Below the pieces are notes generated by a model. That model saw only the letters and a program-made list of their open reading frames with translations. It had not been told where the DNA came from and did not search any database. The translations under genes were made by a program, and so were the position numbers. DNA of 23,830 nt, taken from a virus. Below are positions 486-20,678 of this stretch, piece after piece. The stretch is taken from IMG/VR virus record IMGVR_UViG_3300031840_000185, positions 1-23,830 of that record; one strand, 5' to 3'. How positions within the stretch are numbered: the stretch's first letter is position 1; the number at the start of each line of letters is the position of its first letter.

Positions 486-986
486 TCAAATATCATTACG
501 AATATTGTAACCTAAACCTGATTGTTCTATTGCTTGTATAGCTTTGTCGCCACAACCTATTAATAAACTTCCAGTACTACCTTGTTTTGCTTGTACTTTG
601 CCTTTATAAAACGCTAATCTACCTTTTACAAAACATAATATATCTGCCTTTGTTGCGTAATCGTGAAACCAACGTGTATCTGTTCTAGCAAATACTAATG
701 CAATACCGTTTCCGTGTTCTATAAGTTTCTCTAACCATAATCCAGTATCTTTGCCATAAGGTGGATTACACCACACAAATCCATACCAATCTTGTTTTAA
801 ACCGTCTAATTCTTTGTGGTAATGATTTTCTGCTGGTACCCACGGTACGCCACCTTTAGGTGCTGCAACATCTAAATCAAATGTTGTATTTAAACTTTTA
901 AATAATTCTGGTGGCGTGTACCACTCATTTGATTGAACTATGCCACCGGGGTTTTCATACCAAGTACCATTTTGTTTTTGATCCAT
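486..986 (-). CDS. Phage DNA N6-adenine methyltransferase (Dam-like)
   Basis: A 166-residue protein of the phage N6-adenine methyltransferase family (PF05869 type). Visible signatures are EWYTPPELF (21-29), the SAM-binding strand FDLDVAA (36-42) and the catalytic motif NPPYG (74-78), followed by the family's ALVFART and GRLAFYKG strands. It would transfer a methyl group from SAM to adenine N6 in the phage DNA, usually to block host restriction. No partner endonuclease is visible, so it is a solitary enzyme. It sits between the WhiB-like gene and the HNH gene in a compact run of late-positioned genes. The length is normal for the family. Its target sequence cannot be read from the protein. Confidence 0.85.
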   Translation of the reverse strand: MDQKQNGTWYENPGGIVQSNEWYTPPELFKSLNTTFDLDVAAPKGGVPWVPAENHYHKELDGLKQDWYGFVWCNPPYGKDTGLWLEKLIEHGNGIALVFARTDTRWFHDYATKADILCFVKGRLAFYKGKVQAKQGSTGSLLIGCGDKAIQAIEQSGLGYNIRNDI

Positions 987-2467: not shown

Positions 2468-2767
2468 TTATCTTACTTTATTTTCAATAACTGTTTTGTG
2501 ATCTAAACTATAATTGTAATAATGATTTATCTTAAATTCATCATACAATTCATCTTTTAGTTTATTATCATTGTAAATTTGATAAAGATAATATCTTGGT
2601 ATTGAATAACTTTGACCGTCTGCAAAAGTTATAACAACATTTTCATTTATTGTACCCCAATGCAAATTATCAAGTTCATTACCTTTAATGGTGCTATCTT
2701 TTTTACTCCAATCAATATCTAGTAATTTAGAATTGTTTGGAATTTTTGATAATAACTTAATATTCAT
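2468..2767 (-). CDS. Hypothetical protein
   Basis: A 99-residue protein with a strong ribosome site (GGAAAGGAG close before the ATG). I recognise no family. A beta-rich middle (VVITFADGQSYSIPRYYLY) looks like a small 'DNA-binding or clamp-like' fold seen in many short phage proteins, but that is weak. The C-terminus is rich in Tyr, Asn and Lys. It is the last gene of the operon, followed by the terminator, and overlaps nothing: its start is one base past the stop of the upstream gene. It is very AT-rich, like the neighbouring unknown gene. Confidence 0.7.
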   Translation of the reverse strand: MNIKLLSKIPNNSKLLDIDWSKKDSTIKGNELDNLHWGTINENVVITFADGQSYSIPRYYLYQIYNDNKLKDELYDEFKINHYYNYSLDHKTVIENKVR

Positions 2768-2768
2768 T

Positions 2769-3170
2769 TCACTCCTTTCCTTTGTATTCGTTTTTTATAG
2801 TACGTATTTCTTCATACTTCTTTTTAAGTATTTCTAAATGTTTTTTGTGTACACTTCTTTGATATGGTGCTGACACTTGATAATATTCTTCGTAGTGCAT
2901 TTTAGCGTAAGTTTCGGTTTGCCATAAAATCATTTCTACAATGTAAATTTCTGCAATATTGTTAATTTGAAATATAACTTGTGTACCACGTCCAATTTTT
3001 TTAAATGTTATATTGTTTTTAAAAAAAGTATCTAATTGATGTAAATTAAAATCTAATGATAAATTTTGTTTTGTATAACTTTCTATGTGATCTACAAGAT
3101 TTGTATAATAGAGTTCGTCCCAACACTCATCATACAATTTTTCTGTAATTTTAATTTGATAATTTTGCAA
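2769..3170 (-). CDS. Hypothetical protein (TTG start)
   Basis: A 133-residue protein starting at TTG (3170-3168), supported by GGAG 5 nt upstream; there is no nearby in-frame ATG. It is helical and polar, with many aromatic and charged residues: a YDECWDELYY-like helix at 13-22 and a long Lys/Glu helix at the C-terminus (109-133). No conserved motif is recognised. It has its own promoter-like sequence in the 74-nt gap upstream, so it and the 99-residue gene could be transcribed separately from the rest of the operon. Confidence 0.65.
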   Translation of the reverse strand: MQNYQIKITEKLYDECWDELYYTNLVDHIESYTKQNLSLDFNLHQLDTFFKNNITFKKIGRGTQVIFQINNIAEIYIVEMILWQTETYAKMHYEEYYQVSAPYQRSVHKKHLEILKKKYEEIRTIKNEYKGKE

Positions 3171-3244: not shown

Positions 3245-3640
3245 CTATCTTAAAATTTTTCCAAATTGTTCTAATAAATAACCTACTCGTTTTGGTATTG
3301 GTTCTTGTAGGTAAAACTCTGTTGTTTCTGGTTGCTTTCTAGTTTCCCAATTAAAGTTATAGCCGTTTATTGTAAGATCAGTTATATTCCACGCAATAAT
3401 TCTTGTTTTATATTCTGTAACGTAAATAAATAGCTTTTTATCTTTAGTTGCTTGTGTGTAGTTTTTATCATACTTGTATTTCTCTATTAGCCACGGATTG
3501 TATTCACGTTGCCTAGATTTTATTTCAATTAGGTAATTATCGTTGTAGCAATCATAATGTTCGTAAATGTTTGTTGTTTCTGTAAGCTGTCCAAATACAT
3601 CTAGTTGATTTAATTTATTAATTATTTCTCGTTGCTTCAT
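3245..3640 (-). CDS. Putative PD-(D/E)XK-type nuclease
   Basis: A 131-residue protein. The pattern D30...D34...LIEIKSR (37-43, E39-x-K41), followed by a Lys-rich helix around KYKYDKN (55-61), matches the core of the PD-(D/E)XK nuclease fold (acid, then E-x-K, then a Lys/Gln helix). The segment FIYVTEYKTRIIAWNI then gives the expected extra strands. If real, it would be a small Mg-dependent endonuclease or a resolvase or repair enzyme. Its start overlaps the glycosyltransferase stop by 23 nt, so the two are co-translated. It may attack unmodified DNA, but this is inference. The assignment rests on a short motif only. Confidence 0.5.
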   Translation of the reverse strand: MKQREIINKLNQLDVFGQLTETTNIYEHYDCYNDNYLIEIKSRQREYNPWLIEKYKYDKNYTQATKDKKLFIYVTEYKTRIIAWNITDLTINGYNFNWETRKQPETTEFYLQEPIPKRVGYLLEQFGKILR

Positions 3641-4466
3641 TTTTAATCAATGCTAACCCATAGTCATTATTTTCGTTTTTTAAATGTATGCCTTTTTTAA
3701 ATATTAAGTCATTGTCTGCAAATGGCTTATAATTTACTTGATGATGAAACCTGTTAAATTTTTTTGTTAATTTTACTACGTCTGGGTGTTGATCTACTAA
3801 ACTTTGTGCAAATTCTAACCTATTGTCTGTTTCGCTATATATATCAGCATTACCACCTTTTTGTGTTGATGTTGCACGTTTACCAATTAAAAAAGTTCTA
3901 AACAAAACAGTTACCCAACCGTCTTTTAAAATTCTTAATGATAAATCTGTATCTTCGTTGTACTTGCCACGCCACCTATGTTTAATTTTATTATTTTGTA
4001 AAATACACGAATAAACACGTGTATTAAAGTGTAATGGTGGTCTTGCTTCACTTGCTGGACAAAAAATACCATAGTGCATACCAGCTTGACCAATGTTTTC
4101 ATACCTATCTACAAAATGTTCAATAATTCTAAATGGTGTTGATGTTTTACACTTTATCTTTAAATTGTTATAAAAACGTTCAACGCTTTCAATGTTGTCG
4201 TCTAAAATCCAATGCCAATCAAAGCCATTATCAATACTATGTTGCCAAACAAAATTTCTTACTGGAACAGAACCTTGACCACGTTCACTAAAGTTTTCTG
4301 GTGCTTTAATTATATTTTTTTCATCAATGACATTTGCATAATCATTGTATTCTTTTGGCTCAACCACTATTTTGTAAGGTGTGTTTGTAAATTCCATAGT
4401 TTTTACTGTTTGTCGTCTTTCCCAACGACCTTTAGATATAATATAAATTGGATATTTAGGTTTCAT
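3618..4466 (-). CDS. TET-associated-type DNA glycosyltransferase (TAGT family)
   Basis: A 282-residue GT-A fold glycosyltransferase. I recognise the phage TAGT pattern: YPIYIISKGRW (5-15), IVVEPKEY (33-40), GQGSVPVRNFVW (63-74), the metal/sugar-nucleotide motif WILDDNI (86-92), and the EDTDLSLRIL block (171-180). Known members glycosylate 5-hydroxymethylcytosine, made from 5-methylcytosine by phage TET/JBP dioxygenases, giving hypermodified DNA that resists host nucleases. No dioxygenase or C5 methyltransferase is in this window, so either they lie elsewhere in the genome or the acceptor is another hydroxylated base. The gene overlaps the 84-residue gene upstream by 11 nt and the nuclease-like gene downstream by 23 nt, forming a tight cassette. 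Confidence 0.75.
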   Translation of the reverse strand: MKPKYPIYIISKGRWERRQTVKTMEFTNTPYKIVVEPKEYNDYANVIDEKNIIKAPENFSERGQGSVPVRNFVWQHSIDNGFDWHWILDDNIESVERFYNNLKIKCKTSTPFRIIEHFVDRYENIGQAGMHYGIFCPASEARPPLHFNTRVYSCILQNNKIKHRWRGKYNEDTDLSLRILKDGWVTVLFRTFLIGKRATSTQKGGNADIYSETDNRLEFAQSLVDQHPDVVKLTKKFNRFHHQVNYKPFADNDLIFKKGIHLKNENNDYGLALIKNEATRNN

Positions 4467-4710
4467 TATTATCTATAAATAAATATTTACTTGCTTTTTC
4501 TTTTAATGGAAACCACGCTTGTTTTTCTGTTTTTCTTTGCATACCGTCAAAAACTTTATTTGTTTTATAAACGTGTTTTTTCAATAACTCGTTAAATTCG
4601 TCAAAATCTTTCTGGTTTCTAAACTTAAATTTTGCAATAATAAATGGTTCTTCTTGCTTTTTATTATTATATTCTGGTAATTCTTTATAATGTTCTTCCC
4701 AATTATTCAT
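4456..4710 (-). CDS. Small conserved-type protein upstream of the glycosyltransferase
   Basis: I take the ATG at 4710 (84 residues), which overlaps the preceding stop by 8 nt; longer in-frame starts up to 4809 would run deep inside the preceding gene and are unlikely. The core FKFRNQKDFDEF (28-39) is a strand followed by a helix, and KQAWFPLKEKASKYLFID closes the protein. Small proteins with an F-[RK]-x-x-x-D-F-x-x-F helix and a WFP or WYP end often sit beside modification genes in marine phages, but I cannot name the family. Coupling to the glycosyltransferase suggests a shared role, for example as a subunit or DNA adaptor (inference). Confidence 0.7.
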   Translation of the reverse strand: MNNWEEHYKELPEYNNKKQEEPFIIAKFKFRNQKDFDEFNELLKKHVYKTNKVFDGMQRKTEKQAWFPLKEKASKYLFIDNNET

Positions 4711-5179
4711 TTTGCCATTTCGCAATCCATTTGTCCGTATCTTCCCAACACCATTGGCTACTACTCCACGGTTTCCAATAATTATCCCTTGTGTGCATAT
4801 CTTGTACAAGTAATGCAGCTACTTGAATATTATAACGTGGAATAAACTGTGCATAGGTATTTCCAACTGGGTAATCCCAGTAAGGTATATCGTGTTTTTC
4901 TTTTACCCAACCCCACGTTCTTGGTATTGCTTGAAATAAGCCACTATCTTGATCTTGGTAGCGATATGCGTCTGCTTTATTGCGACTTTCACACCACATT
5001 ACTTTTACAGCTGTTTCTATGTTTTTTTCATCAAAATGTTCTACAAGTAATGTTGCATATTGATAACAAGTTTCTGGTACATAATTATCGCAATCAGTTA
5101 AATTTATAACTTCATCTGCAACGCCATAACCAAAATTATTTACAAGTAAAGCGTAAATTAATATGCACTTAGTTATCAA
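4703..5179 (-). CDS. Secreted lysozyme/transglycosylase-like protein (TTG start)
   Basis: A 158-residue protein starting at TTG (5179), which overlaps the upstream TGA. Residues 1-21 form a Sec signal peptide (K4, hydrophobic 6-20, cleavage near GVA-DE). The mature part has the lysozyme-like/SLT signature: MWCESR (61-66) with the likely catalytic E64, then SGLFQAIPRTW (79-89). The C-terminus is Trp-rich (KPWSSSQWCW). Four Cys (30, 38, 63, 144) could make disulfides, fitting an exported protein. It should cleave the glycan strand of peptidoglycan. It lies in the replication operon, far from the amidase/holin lysis pair, so it may act early on the wall or release host wall material, or it may be a virion protein. 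The role is uncertain. Confidence 0.75.
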   Translation of the reverse strand: MITKCILIYALLVNNFGYGVADEVINLTDCDNYVPETCYQYATLLVEHFDEKNIETAVKVMWCESRNKADAYRYQDQDSGLFQAIPRTWGWVKEKHDIPYWDYPVGNTYAQFIPRYNIQVAALLVQDMHTRDNYWKPWSSSQWCWEDTDKWIAKWQNE

Positions 5180-5868
5180 AATAAACCTATTTGTGTGTTA
5201 TTAATGCGTTCTGTTGCATAATCATAATATTCTTTTACAAGTTCTATGCCTATAAAATTACGATTTAACTTAACACAACTTACACCTGTTGTACCCATAC
5301 CCATAAACGGATCTAGTATAATTTCATTTTCTTGTGTAAAATTTTCTATTATATAATTTGATAATTCTTGTGGCATTACAGCACTATGATTTTTTAACTT
5401 TTCATTTTTACTAATTTTATTTATTGATACTAAATTTTTAATAAAATGTTTATTTGCTTCTACGTAAATATTATTTGTAAAAAATAAAATGTATTCAACA
5501 AAATTAGAAACTCTATGTTGTATTGAACTTGGTGTACCGTCTGGTTTATACCATATAATATTTTGTTGTAATTTATCTGCAAAATGTCCCATTATTCTAT
5601 AAACTTCTTTTTTATTTGAATAATTAGGTTGTATATTCCAAATTACATACTTTTTAGATACTCTTAATAATTCATCTATTATTTCAACACACCAATCAAA
5701 ATAATTTGGATTGTTATCTTCAAAAAATTCATATTTTGCTTTCATATCACTTTTTGTTTTATTGTTAGATCTGCCAATGTTGTACGGTGGACTTGTAAAT
5801 ACATAATCTACGCTGTTGTCATCAAATTCTTTTAAAGCTTGTAAGCAATCTGCATTAATCAGTTTCAT
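5176..5868 (-). CDS. Beta-class DNA methyltransferase (N4-cytosine or N6-adenine)
   Basis: A 230-residue SAM-dependent DNA methyltransferase with motifs in the beta-class order: catalytic motif IV TSPPYNIG (25-32) first, then HSAVMPQEL (161-169), motif I DPFMGMGTTG (186-195) and FIGIEL (205-210). SPPY is most typical of N4-cytosine enzymes, but N6-adenine enzymes with this variant exist. The target-recognition part is short (about 35-150). No restriction enzyme is adjacent, so it is probably a solitary protective or regulatory methylase. It overlaps the initiator gene upstream by 14 nt and the secreted lysozyme-like gene downstream by 4 nt. Its start ATG lies inside the end of the initiator gene. 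Confidence 0.85.
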   Translation of the reverse strand: MKLINADCLQALKEFDDNSVDYVFTSPPYNIGRSNNKTKSDMKAKYEFFEDNNPNYFDWCVEIIDELLRVSKKYVIWNIQPNYSNKKEVYRIMGHFADKLQQNIIWYKPDGTPSSIQHRVSNFVEYILFFTNNIYVEANKHFIKNLVSINKISKNEKLKNHSAVMPQELSNYIIENFTQENEIILDPFMGMGTTGVSCVKLNRNFIGIELVKEYYDYATERINNTQIGLF

Positions 5869-11105: not shown

Positions 11106-11285
11106 TTATTTTCTAAAATTTATTGTTGCAAACCAAACACCAAAACTTATTAGGATCATAATACCTACAACGTCTTTAGACGTTCCAGTCAAGAGAAAAT
11201 AAGAAATCGCAAAACCCAAAATGGTGAACGTCTGTGCTGCTGTTTCTCTAAGTATCGCTATTATGCCGTTATATATTTTTTTCAT
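11106..11285 (-). CDS. Small two-segment membrane protein
   Basis: A 59-residue ORF whose ATG overlaps the TAA of the 570-residue surface-protein gene (TAATG), implying coupled translation. Two hydrophobic segments are clear: about 20-33 (FTILGFAISYFLL) and 39-54 (VVGIMILISFGVWFA), joined by a short TGTSKD turn, with Lys at both ends. It could be a second holin or antiholin, or a membrane partner of the exported protein. A 7-bp inverted repeat (AACGTCT-TT-AGACGTT, 11169-11184) lies within the coding sequence. Confidence 0.7.
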   Translation of the reverse strand: MKKIYNGIIAILRETAAQTFTILGFAISYFLLTGTSKDVVGIMILISFGVWFATINFRK

Positions 11286-12997
11286 TAAAATCTTCTAGTT
11301 ATTGGTGTAGCAATAATCTGGCCAACAATAATTACCGGGACAACTGTTTTAGCTGCTTGTGTCTTTACTGCTTGTGGCATATCACTACCAATATCTGATA
11401 ATACTACACCAGACAAATCAATATCAGTTAGTTGTCCTAATGGATTTTGTATAAATTCTTCTATACCTATTTCAACGATTACGTTTTGTATTCCATAATC
11501 TTCTACATCTGCGTTTTCTGTTGCACGTTCTACATACTCTTGTACAGCTGTTGCAATAGTTTTATCTTCTATAGATTGTTTTGCAATTATTACAACGTCA
11601 TTAGTTTCTTGTACACCAAGCACTTCAGCAACAACTTCTTTTTCTTCTTCACTAAGTTCTGCAACTGTTTCAGGTTTAGTTACTTCTACTACAACAGCTT
11701 GTACAATTTGTTTTGTTTCTTCAGTAGCTTTATCTAAATTTTGTACACTTACTTTTGCTACTTCTTTTACAACTTCTATTTTTTCTTCTACCGGTAATGC
11801 TTGAACAGCTTCAACTATTTCTTTTTCGGTAGTATCTTCTGTAATTTCAACAACTTGTATTTTTAATTCAACTTGTTTTATTACTTCTTCTTGTTCTTCA
11901 TCTGATAAATCTTCTAGTGGTGTTTCGTTATTTCTTCTACCCACTTCTTCTTGTTCGTCTGGAATAATATCCACAATTTCATCTTCTTCAAAAACCTCTT
12001 TAATAGGTTCTGTATCTTCTTCTTCATATAAATCTTCCTGTTCTATAATTATTATTTCTGGTAGATCAAGTACAATAACTTCTTCTTCTATTTCGTATTG
12101 TTCTAAATCTTGTTCTTGTATTTCTTGTATTACGTCAATAAGTTCCTGTATTTCTTCTAATTCTTCATCTGATAATTTTTCAACATCAACATCTTTTAAT
12201 ATTGATTGTTCTAATTCTTTTTGTATCGCTGCTTCTTTTTCAGCTTCAATGCGTTCAGCTTCTTCTCTGTCTGCTCTCTCTTTGTTAGTTTCGTATATAC
12301 CAGTTTCTAAAAAATTTAATTCTTCTTCTGTTGGAGGTATTGTTGTAGTCGTTGTAGTAGTAGTAGTTGTTGTAGTTTCTGGTACAACGATAGGTTCTTT
12401 ACAATCACCATTCTGATAACCAAACCACTCTTTGCTTTCAATAGCTGTAAGATATTCTTTATATGAAAGCGGATTGTTTGGGTGCTCACACCCATTTTTA
12501 TCCCAAGCCAAGTACGTAGTAATACCATCTTCAACGACTTCTTCTGCTTTGGGTAGCGTAGTTGTTGTCGTACTAGATGTCGTTGTAGTAGGTATAAAAA
12601 CATAATTATATAATACACTTTGTACAGGAGTAAAGTCGCTAGTTGTACCATTAGTATCGTGAAATGCTTTTACCTTTGCATATATATTTTGATTATCTAC
12701 AGACAATTCGTTGTATAAATACTCTGCTGTAAATGTATAACTTTGCCAAGACAATGCTTCTGTAAAACCAAATTTTGTTTGTACTGATTTATCATCAGCA
12801 GTTTCAGTAAGTCCTATATAAACTATGTAGTATTCAGGTGGGTTATCTTCATAGCCATCACTTTCCTGCCAACTAACTGTAATACTTCCATCATTATTTA
12901 ATGTATTAGTAATACCATAAGGTGTTTGTGTTTCTGTATGGTAAGCCATTACAGGTAAAGGTATCAATAAAAAAATAGCAAATAATACCCTTAGCAT
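11285..12997 (-). CDS. Exported Thr-linker, Glu-rich surface protein of unknown function
   Basis: A 570-residue protein. Residues 1-18 are a Sec signal peptide ending VMA. Residues about 20-132 form a fibronectin-III-like beta domain (ITVSWQESDG, YYIVYIGLTE, IYAKVKAFHD). A Thr/Ser linker (137-147) leads to a small domain (150-205) with two Cys (170, 199), and a second Thr run (208-219) leads to a long acidic helical part. There, LSDEELEE (275), LSDEEQEE (364) and LSEEEKEV (448) recur at about 85-90 residues, marking diverged repeats. The C-terminus has a short hydrophobic stretch (552-565) and ends TRRF, like a membrane anchor. Such Thr-linked exported proteins are typical of host surfaces. 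Placed between tail and lysis genes, it could be a surface decoy, a superinfection-exclusion factor or a wall-associated factor; none is proven. Confidence 0.75.
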   Translation of the reverse strand: MLRVLFAIFLLIPLPVMAYHTETQTPYGITNTLNNDGSITVSWQESDGYEDNPPEYYIVYIGLTETADDKSVQTKFGFTEALSWQSYTFTAEYLYNELSVDNQNIYAKVKAFHDTNGTTSDFTPVQSVLYNYVFIPTTTTSSTTTTTLPKAEEVVEDGITTYLAWDKNGCEHPNNPLSYKEYLTAIESKEWFGYQNGDCKEPIVVPETTTTTTTTTTTTIPPTEEELNFLETGIYETNKERADREEAERIEAEKEAAIQKELEQSILKDVDVEKLSDEELEEIQELIDVIQEIQEQDLEQYEIEEEVIVLDLPEIIIIEQEDLYEEEDTEPIKEVFEEDEIVDIIPDEQEEVGRRNNETPLEDLSDEEQEEVIKQVELKIQVVEITEDTTEKEIVEAVQALPVEEKIEVVKEVAKVSVQNLDKATEETKQIVQAVVVEVTKPETVAELSEEEKEVVAEVLGVQETNDVVIIAKQSIEDKTIATAVQEYVERATENADVEDYGIQNVIVEIGIEEFIQNPLGQLTDIDLSGVVLSDIGSDMPQAVKTQAAKTVVPVIIVGQIIATPITRRF

Positions 12998-20271: not shown

Positions 20272-20678
20272 TACGAAGTAGCCCTAGTAATTGTTCCAGA
20301 AGTTGGGAACGATACGGACATAGTTGCTAATTCACCAACTGCGTTAGCTACTGGTATGTGTTGATTTACAAGCACGTTTCCAGAATAACTTGGGTTAGTA
20401 GCACTTACTGATCCACTGGTAGGTTTTACAACAAATGCTGTTGTACTACCAAGTAGTGGAAATAATGTAGCGTCCACTTCTGAAGCTGCGAAATCTTGTT
20501 GGAACTCAATAGATAGTGTTCCGTCCTTTAATCCACCAGTTCTGGATTGAAATGTATCACCCATAGCTGTTGTAACGATTTCATCAGCTGTAATATCTAA
20601 TGTAACACTTGAAACGTGGTCTGATAGATCAACGCTGTTCAAGGTAACACTAGCGTCTGTTAAAACAAATTTTGCCAA
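20271..20678 (-). CDS. Small tail tube paralogue
   Basis: A 135-residue beta protein with a strong ribosome site (AAAGGAG). The N-terminal 60 residues closely match those of the larger tail tube gene upstream: MAKFV, DLSDHVSSVTLDITADEI and GGLKDGTLSIEF versus DLSSHVTSVNLEINAEEL and GGLKDSTLSMDG. The rest (VGELATMSVSFPTSGTITR) has the tail tube ending. It arose by tandem duplication. Its compact size makes it a plausible main tube subunit, or it may be a minor tube or terminal ring protein. Confidence 0.7.
   Translation of the reverse strand: MAKFVLTDASVTLNSVDLSDHVSSVTLDITADEIVTTAMGDTFQSRTGGLKDGTLSIEFQQDFAASEVDATLFPLLGSTTAFVVKPTSGSVSATNPSYSGNVLVNQHIPVANAVGELATMSVSFPTSGTITRATS

Follow-up and report, generated by a model that had tools for sequence, protein, structure and literature searches.

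A TAGT-type glycosyltransferase gene in an actinophage-like genome

The DNA analyzed here (the window) comprises all 23,830 bases of one IMG/VR record, which belongs to the record class of fragments and has a G+C content of 33%. The minus strand carries all of its WhiB, capsid, tail, endolysin, and regulatory genes, and the virus, judged from its sequence, is an actinophage-like siphovirus. Given the presence of WhiB, its host is probably an aquatic actinobacterium. At positions 999 to 1655, the WhiB domain is joined by a cysteine-rich C-terminal part, with weak profile matches to endonuclease VII and Lar-like restriction-alleviation proteins. Close to the lysis/tail region, positions 11285 to 12997 encode a secreted-looking protein of 570 aa that contains acidic repeats and long stretches of threonine, the counterpart of which is longer (717 aa) in the sister record G050. 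The features that concern us are the following.

486..986, minus strand: Dam-type N6-adenine methylase (PF05869, 5.6e-15), a variable slot
2468..3170, minus strand: two small ORFs of 99 and 133 aa, absent from the sister phages and from the relative L002
3245..3640, minus strand: PD-(D/E)XK-like protein of 131 aa (weak assignment); backbone gene, 3' border of the exchange slot, outside the cassette
3618..4466, minus strand: TAGT-type glycosyltransferase of 282 aa (PF20691, phrog_842), predicted GT-A fold, intact catalytic motifs
3644..4713, minus strand: exchange unit W-MP + TAGT, 1070 bp, between two AAAATGAA direct repeats
4456..4710, minus strand: W-MP protein, 84 aa from its ATG; putative TAGT partner domain outside Pfam families
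4703..5179, minus strand: SLT transglycosylase-like gene (PF01464, 7.6e-5); backbone, 5' border of the exchange slot
5176..5868, minus strand: N4/N6 DNA methylase (PF01555, 7e-37), a second variable slot

The first-pass annotation had placed a TAGT-type glycosyltransferase between a small upstream ORF and a downstream PD-(D/E)XK-like ORF, with overlaps on both sides. All three ORFs were confirmed and run in the same direction, on the minus strand, and the TAGT overlaps the upstream ORF by 11 nt and the downstream one by 23 nt. The TAGT product matched PF20691 over the entire model (positions 1 to 205 of 205) with an E value of 2.5e-41 and 142.3 bits, for a gathering score of 27.5, and matched phrog_842 with an E value of 6e-40. 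The motifs DDN, WRGKYNEDTDLSLR, and FHHQV are conserved; inspection for DXD-like and acceptor-site motifs recovered DDN, NEDTDLSLR, and HH. Structure prediction was performed on a homologous W-MP-TAGT fusion (L013), the core of which was modeled mostly with a pLDDT above 90 and matched GT-A UDP-sugar transferases in the PDB. The solved GT-A folds nearest to this model were mostly protein glycosyltransferases at low TM-scores (0.25 to 0.41), with collagen and mucin-type enzymes as the best Foldseek matches. The GT-A matches were generic, and structural comparison gave no firm clue to the acceptor. We regard the TAGT as a predicted nucleotide-sugar-dependent GT-A transferase, a property shown for the family and modeled here on the homologue.

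A small domain, W-MP, accompanies TAGT

Profile searches of the two ORFs that overlap the TAGT gene had been proposed with the first-pass annotation. The downstream ORF had no Pfam match; its L002 homologue aligned to PDDEXK_14 with an E value of 0.043, below the cutoff, and a D..EIK motif is visible, leaving the PD-(D/E)XK assignment weak. The product of the upstream ORF matched no Pfam family even at an E value of 10 and is a candidate undescribed domain, here called W-MP, with the pattern W-x2-MPE[FY] ... F..xxD...F ... W[FYH]P and conserved P, F, W, and P residues.

We fetched 25 loci from viral contigs with the window TAGT and found W-MP just upstream of TAGT, or fused to its N terminus, in 24 of the 24 that could be assessed (L026, which starts inside TAGT, was left out). 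The reverse search, with W-MP sequences only, returned at least 527 relatives in viral contigs, and a TAGT stood beside W-MP on the same strand in every one of the 80 best loci. Among 50,697 named phages, all nine matches of the W-MP query were W-MP-TAGT fusions, and the window W-MP used as a tblastn query had no match there. The broad W-MP alignment A3 gave no usable result as a scan query. Across 84,980 bacterial and archaeal genomes, somewhat stricter patterns retrieved six W-MP loci, each with a TAGT (6/6); as pattern-based scans miss distant forms, this count covers the closer ones. The scarcity of W-MP in these genomes suggests that W-MP-TAGT is mainly a phage module. Eight distinct public phages that we checked carry W-MP: Kuja, PTm1, henriette, Aeh1, 65, POP12, 1.124.O, and 1.076.O.

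Three architectures were encountered, namely, stand-alone W-MP, ParB_N-W-MP, and W-MP-TAGT fusion, with at least eight switches on the TAGT tree, and the W-MP and TAGT ORFs mostly overlap or abut across loci. W-MP and TAGT have thus been joined and separated repeatedly, a good indication that they act together. Of the cassette first proposed, the small upstream ORF proved to be the conserved partner, a role that the first-pass annotation had not given it, and the PD-(D/E)XK-like gene was removed from it: W-MP, not the nuclease-like gene, appears to be the true, obligate partner of TAGT.

The ParB_N part of the ParB_N-W-MP proteins has Pfam support, with two proteins scoring under the gathering threshold, and is also backed by comparison of models with ParB/Noc structures; the W-MP part is partly of low confidence in both structure models. 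Plasmid matches were rejected as W-MP homologues, since those inspected aligned through ParB_N only. Other phages have ParB_N joined to N6/N4 DNA methylases. The ParB_N-W-MP proteins of many TAGT loci resemble these fusions but have a glycosyltransferase as the partner enzyme, and the window W-MP differs from both in lacking ParB_N.

Other arrangements were seen at single loci. In Aeh1 (L055, from position 4882) and in POP12 (L057, from position 4831), another short ORF that resembles W-MP comes after the W-MP-TAGT fusion, and a contig from a bacterial genome (L155) has an open frame of 690 residues comprising W-MP, TAGT, and about 300 further residues.

W-MP and TAGT are exchanged as a unit between sister phages

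A search with the nuclease-like gene retrieved seven sister phages with collinear flanking DNA of 70 to 96% identity. No TAGT was found anywhere in the records of these phages, in which the nuclease-like gene is kept at 88 to 98% identity. The first-pass annotation had considered this gene an unusual companion of the TAGT; its presence in seven near-identical phages without TAGT marks it as a backbone gene, and we rejected it as a functional partner. The SLT transglycosylase-like gene on the other side is likewise backbone, with about 95% identical DNA in the sister phages.

In the window, each of the two AAAATGAA repeats holds the ATG of the next gene. In 4 of the 7 sisters, the W-MP + TAGT unit is absent from start codon to start codon, and the transglycosylase gene continues into the beginning of the nuclease-like gene. 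In G052 and G054, a C5-cytosine methylase (PF00145) begins at the same ATG as the unit. G053 has an apparently interrupted gene at this place, with the look of a C5-type methylase from its first residues only. Because the sisters have either an empty slot or a C5-methylase-type gene there, the W-MP + TAGT cassette can be considered one allele of a DNA-modification slot.

The N4/N6-type methylase that had been noted upstream of the TAGT is present (PF01555), and in the sisters its slot is empty or holds other genes. It is missing from L002, which of the TAGT-bearing relatives is the closest (77% TAGT identity) and which keeps W-MP + TAGT; we therefore rejected it as a required partner. The Dam-type methylase gene, which the earlier annotation did not mention, stands in a slot that is filled by other methylases in the sisters, and the N4/N6 and Dam-type slots vary independently of one another among these genomes. 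The two small ORFs at 2468-3170 correspond to a gap between positions 20586 and 21429 of the reverse complement in the sister alignment, and a profile search found no confident family match for either.

The otherwise collinear lineage thus has at least four variable slots (5176-5868, 3644-4713, 2468-3170, and 486-986), which together form a modification island. Their contents are mostly DNA-modification genes (N4/N6, C5, and Dam types) but include a PAPS-reductase-like gene in G052 and a TRM-like gene in G050. At the HNH-TerS junction of G051 and G056 (L165/L172), a ParB_N-like protein runs on into DNA-methylase-like sequence, apparently another ParB_N-methylase fusion, and G056 has a further methylase-like gene at its TerL-portal junction; both slots belong to the segment beyond the window.

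Known base-hydroxylating enzymes are not found with the cassette

The first-pass annotation had seen neither a TET/JBP dioxygenase nor a C5 methylase in the window. Profile searches agreed and found no hydroxymethylase there either. TET/JBP (PF12851) was absent from all 50 IMG/VR records of the TAGT set (26 including the window and 24 further long ones) and from the 7 sisters, as was the thymidylate-synthase-type hydroxymethylase family (PF00303) from the same 50 records (∼1.46 Mb) and 7 sisters; most of these records are fragments, like the window, and hydroxylases of an unrecognized kind would escape the profiles. As positive controls, the TET protein of Nonlabens phage P12024L (2.8e-29) and the hydroxymethylase of T6 were detected. 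No PF00145 C5 methylase was found in the 34 IMG/VR records with W-MP-TAGT, and the C5-type genes of the sister phages stand in place of TAGT, not beside it.

It had been suggested that the other parts of a hypermodification pathway might lie outside the window. The near-complete sister record G050 (29.3 kb) spans TerS to an HNH gene, which is the same HNH gene as at the left end of the window, and in G052 and G056 HNH is joined to TerS. From this layout, we estimate that genomes of the lineage are about 30 kb long and that the window is without TerS, TerL, portal, and protease (∼6 kb) only. In relatives, this segment holds those four genes, and its extra content consists of optional methylase genes only; no hydroxylase was found in the TerS/TerL/portal/protease segments of the sisters, some of which have methylase-like genes there. 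A location of missing parts outside the window is thus unlikely, and a check of the remaining genome for TET or hydroxymethylase genes, performed on the sisters including G050, was negative. The other suggestion, of an acceptor that neither TET nor hydroxymethylase produces, gains support from the lack of both enzymes in the TAGT-set IMG/VR records and the sisters.

The G011 record is T7-like and 42 kb long, and its genes include those for RNA polymerase, primase-helicase, PolA, portal, and capsid. Its W-MP-TAGT lies between primase-helicase and PolA, and no methylase was found at a Pfam threshold of 1e-7. Large W-MP-TAGT myoviruses do have PF00303 proteins: in Aeh1 the sole full-length match is a canonical thymidylate synthase, whereas the proteins of Kuja and phage 65 are divergent and might make a hydroxylated base.

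The cassette differs from described TAGT systems

PMC13216743 and PMC13390438 describe the TAGT of T2/T6 as a beta-glucosyl-HMC-alpha-glucosyltransferase working on glucosyl-hmC DNA, and the former predicts a GT-A fold for the T6 enzyme. The window TAGT shares with it the family (PF20691/phrog_842), the length (∼280 aa), and a setting of phage DNA hypermodification. In contrast, the T6 gene overlaps gene 42 (hydroxymethylase) by 4 nt, its genome carries alpha-GT, the first 45 kb of T6 are without a W-MP domain, and a profile of W-MP-type TAGTs misses the T6 TAGT. Two components of the T-even gentiobiosyl-hmC pathway were thus not found with the cassette: the dCMP hydroxymethylase (PF00303 absent from the window and sisters) and the alpha-GT (PF11440, in T6 alone among 30 records).

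The TET/JBP-TAGT cassette of P12024L (gp26-gp28) contains a homologue with 27% identity to the window TAGT. P12024L has TET and is without W-MP; the reverse holds for the window and for every W-MP-TAGT phage searched, and for TET/JBP this search covers the window fragment, 7 sisters, and 49 further IMG/VR records. A C5 methylase is expected alongside TET, and in the 34 W-MP-TAGT records none accompanied the TAGT. The methylase of the P12024L cassette itself (L058, 18039-18674) has an N6/N4-type look (DPPYG motif) and no PF00145 match.

According to PMC13216743, 288 of 753 glycosyltransferase-bearing phage genomes have TAGT without alpha-GT or beta-GT ("solitary TAGT"), for which novel transferases were suggested. 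The window appears to share this gene content and is best read as a member of the class; the passages of that paper on TAGT describe no companion domain such as the W-MP found here. On these comparisons, the cassette is a TAGT member predicted to work like a DNA-hypermodification glycosyltransferase, and it falls outside the TET-TAGT and T-even hmC pathways as tested.

The TAGT family itself was already established; the new part is the W-MP partner domain with its three architectures and the exchange at a methylase slot. The literature searched, a scope apart from the founding TAGT paper (10.1093/nar/gkt573), contained no description of this partner or exchange and no report of hypermodification by ParB with a glycosyltransferase.

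Proposed function of the W-MP-TAGT cassette

The acceptor is most likely DNA, because the cassette and DNA methylase genes replace one another at a shared start codon, because ParB_N is a domain that phages otherwise join to DNA methylases, because of the replication and terminase neighborhoods of the cassette (W-MP-TAGT adjoins terminase genes in many loci), and because of the activity assigned to the T2/T6 TAGT (PMC13216743, PMC13390438). In the mechanism that we propose, the TAGT, with its GT-A fold, would take a sugar from a host nucleotide-sugar and place it on bases of phage DNA. W-MP would bind TAGT and target or license it on DNA, a task for which many relatives may enlist ParB_N. The acceptor would be either an unmodified base or the product of an unrecognized or host enzyme.

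To our knowledge, phage DNA glycosylation always requires that the base be hydroxylated first. Here a pair of genes enters a methylase slot by itself, in near-identical phages and unaccompanied by any known hydroxylase, which suggests that sugar can be put on DNA by a shorter route. We consider it probable that W-MP and TAGT together make up a DNA glycosyltransferase of two components that is self-contained, spreads by horizontal exchange, and has no need of a phage TET/JBP or hydroxymethylase, serving as an anti-restriction allele, a role suggested by the slot exchange with C5-methylase-type genes or with nothing. A narrower version, put forward tentatively and with less than even odds, is that W-MP-TAGT adds the sugar directly to an unmodified base from a single 1-kb cassette, with W-MP as an essential DNA-targeting or activating subunit, as its obligate linkage to TAGT would suggest. 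The cassette offers a concrete test case for what solitary TAGT enzymes do, and such a small enzyme pair might serve to label or protect DNA.

Alternatives were weighed against this proposal. Use of the classical pathway, in which TAGT acts on 5hmC or 5hmU made by an unrecognized enzyme or by a hydroxylase from another part of the phage genome, outside the window, seems rather unlikely: the placement of TAGT beside gene 42 in T6 and beside TET in P12024L, the fragmentary window record, and the divergent proteins of Kuja and phage 65 speak for it, but TET and PF00303 are missing from the TAGT-set records and the sisters, Aeh1 offers only its canonical thymidylate synthase, and W-MP + TAGT moves alone between otherwise collinear genomes. 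We find it still harder to believe that the acceptor is a capsid, tail, host, or other phage protein. The top Foldseek matches are protein glycosyltransferases, and in 1.076.O the TAGT gene lies between portal and head-morphogenesis genes, which counts against a DNA acceptor; however, those matches are generic and low scoring, and the allelic swap with DNA methylase genes, the position between primase-helicase and PolA in G011, the ParB_N linkage, and the DNA activity assigned to the T2/T6 members (PMC13216743) all argue the other way.

Improbable, too, is a pair in which a neighboring N4/N6 or Dam methylase modifies the base before TAGT acts. The window has both methylases, the P12024L cassette includes an N6/N4-type one, and 1.124.O has a Dam-type gene two genes downstream of TAGT; yet L002 dispenses with the N4/N6 gene, T7-like G011 has no methylase at the threshold used, and the methylases of the lineage vary slot by slot. 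The unit first imagined, TAGT with a PD-(D/E)XK nuclease that cuts unmodified DNA, has in its favor the 23-nt gene overlap, and we now give it almost no credence, as the nuclease-like gene is backbone and other genes lie downstream of TAGT at most loci.

In keeping with the preferred reading, a two-component DNA glycosyltransferase, some cassettes include putative sugar-tailoring genes. In L009, W-MP and TAGT are separated by a gene for an FkbM-type methyltransferase, and in L019 an epimerase-like gene comes directly after TAGT; epimerases (UDP-sugar epimerase) and a second glycosyltransferase family are also among the neighbors in the 80 best W-MP loci. Finally, Kuja phage (L052, 3581-6269) and a metagenomic phage (L016, 8585-10846) each carry a tandem pair of W-MP-TAGT fusions, perhaps for two sugars or two acceptors.
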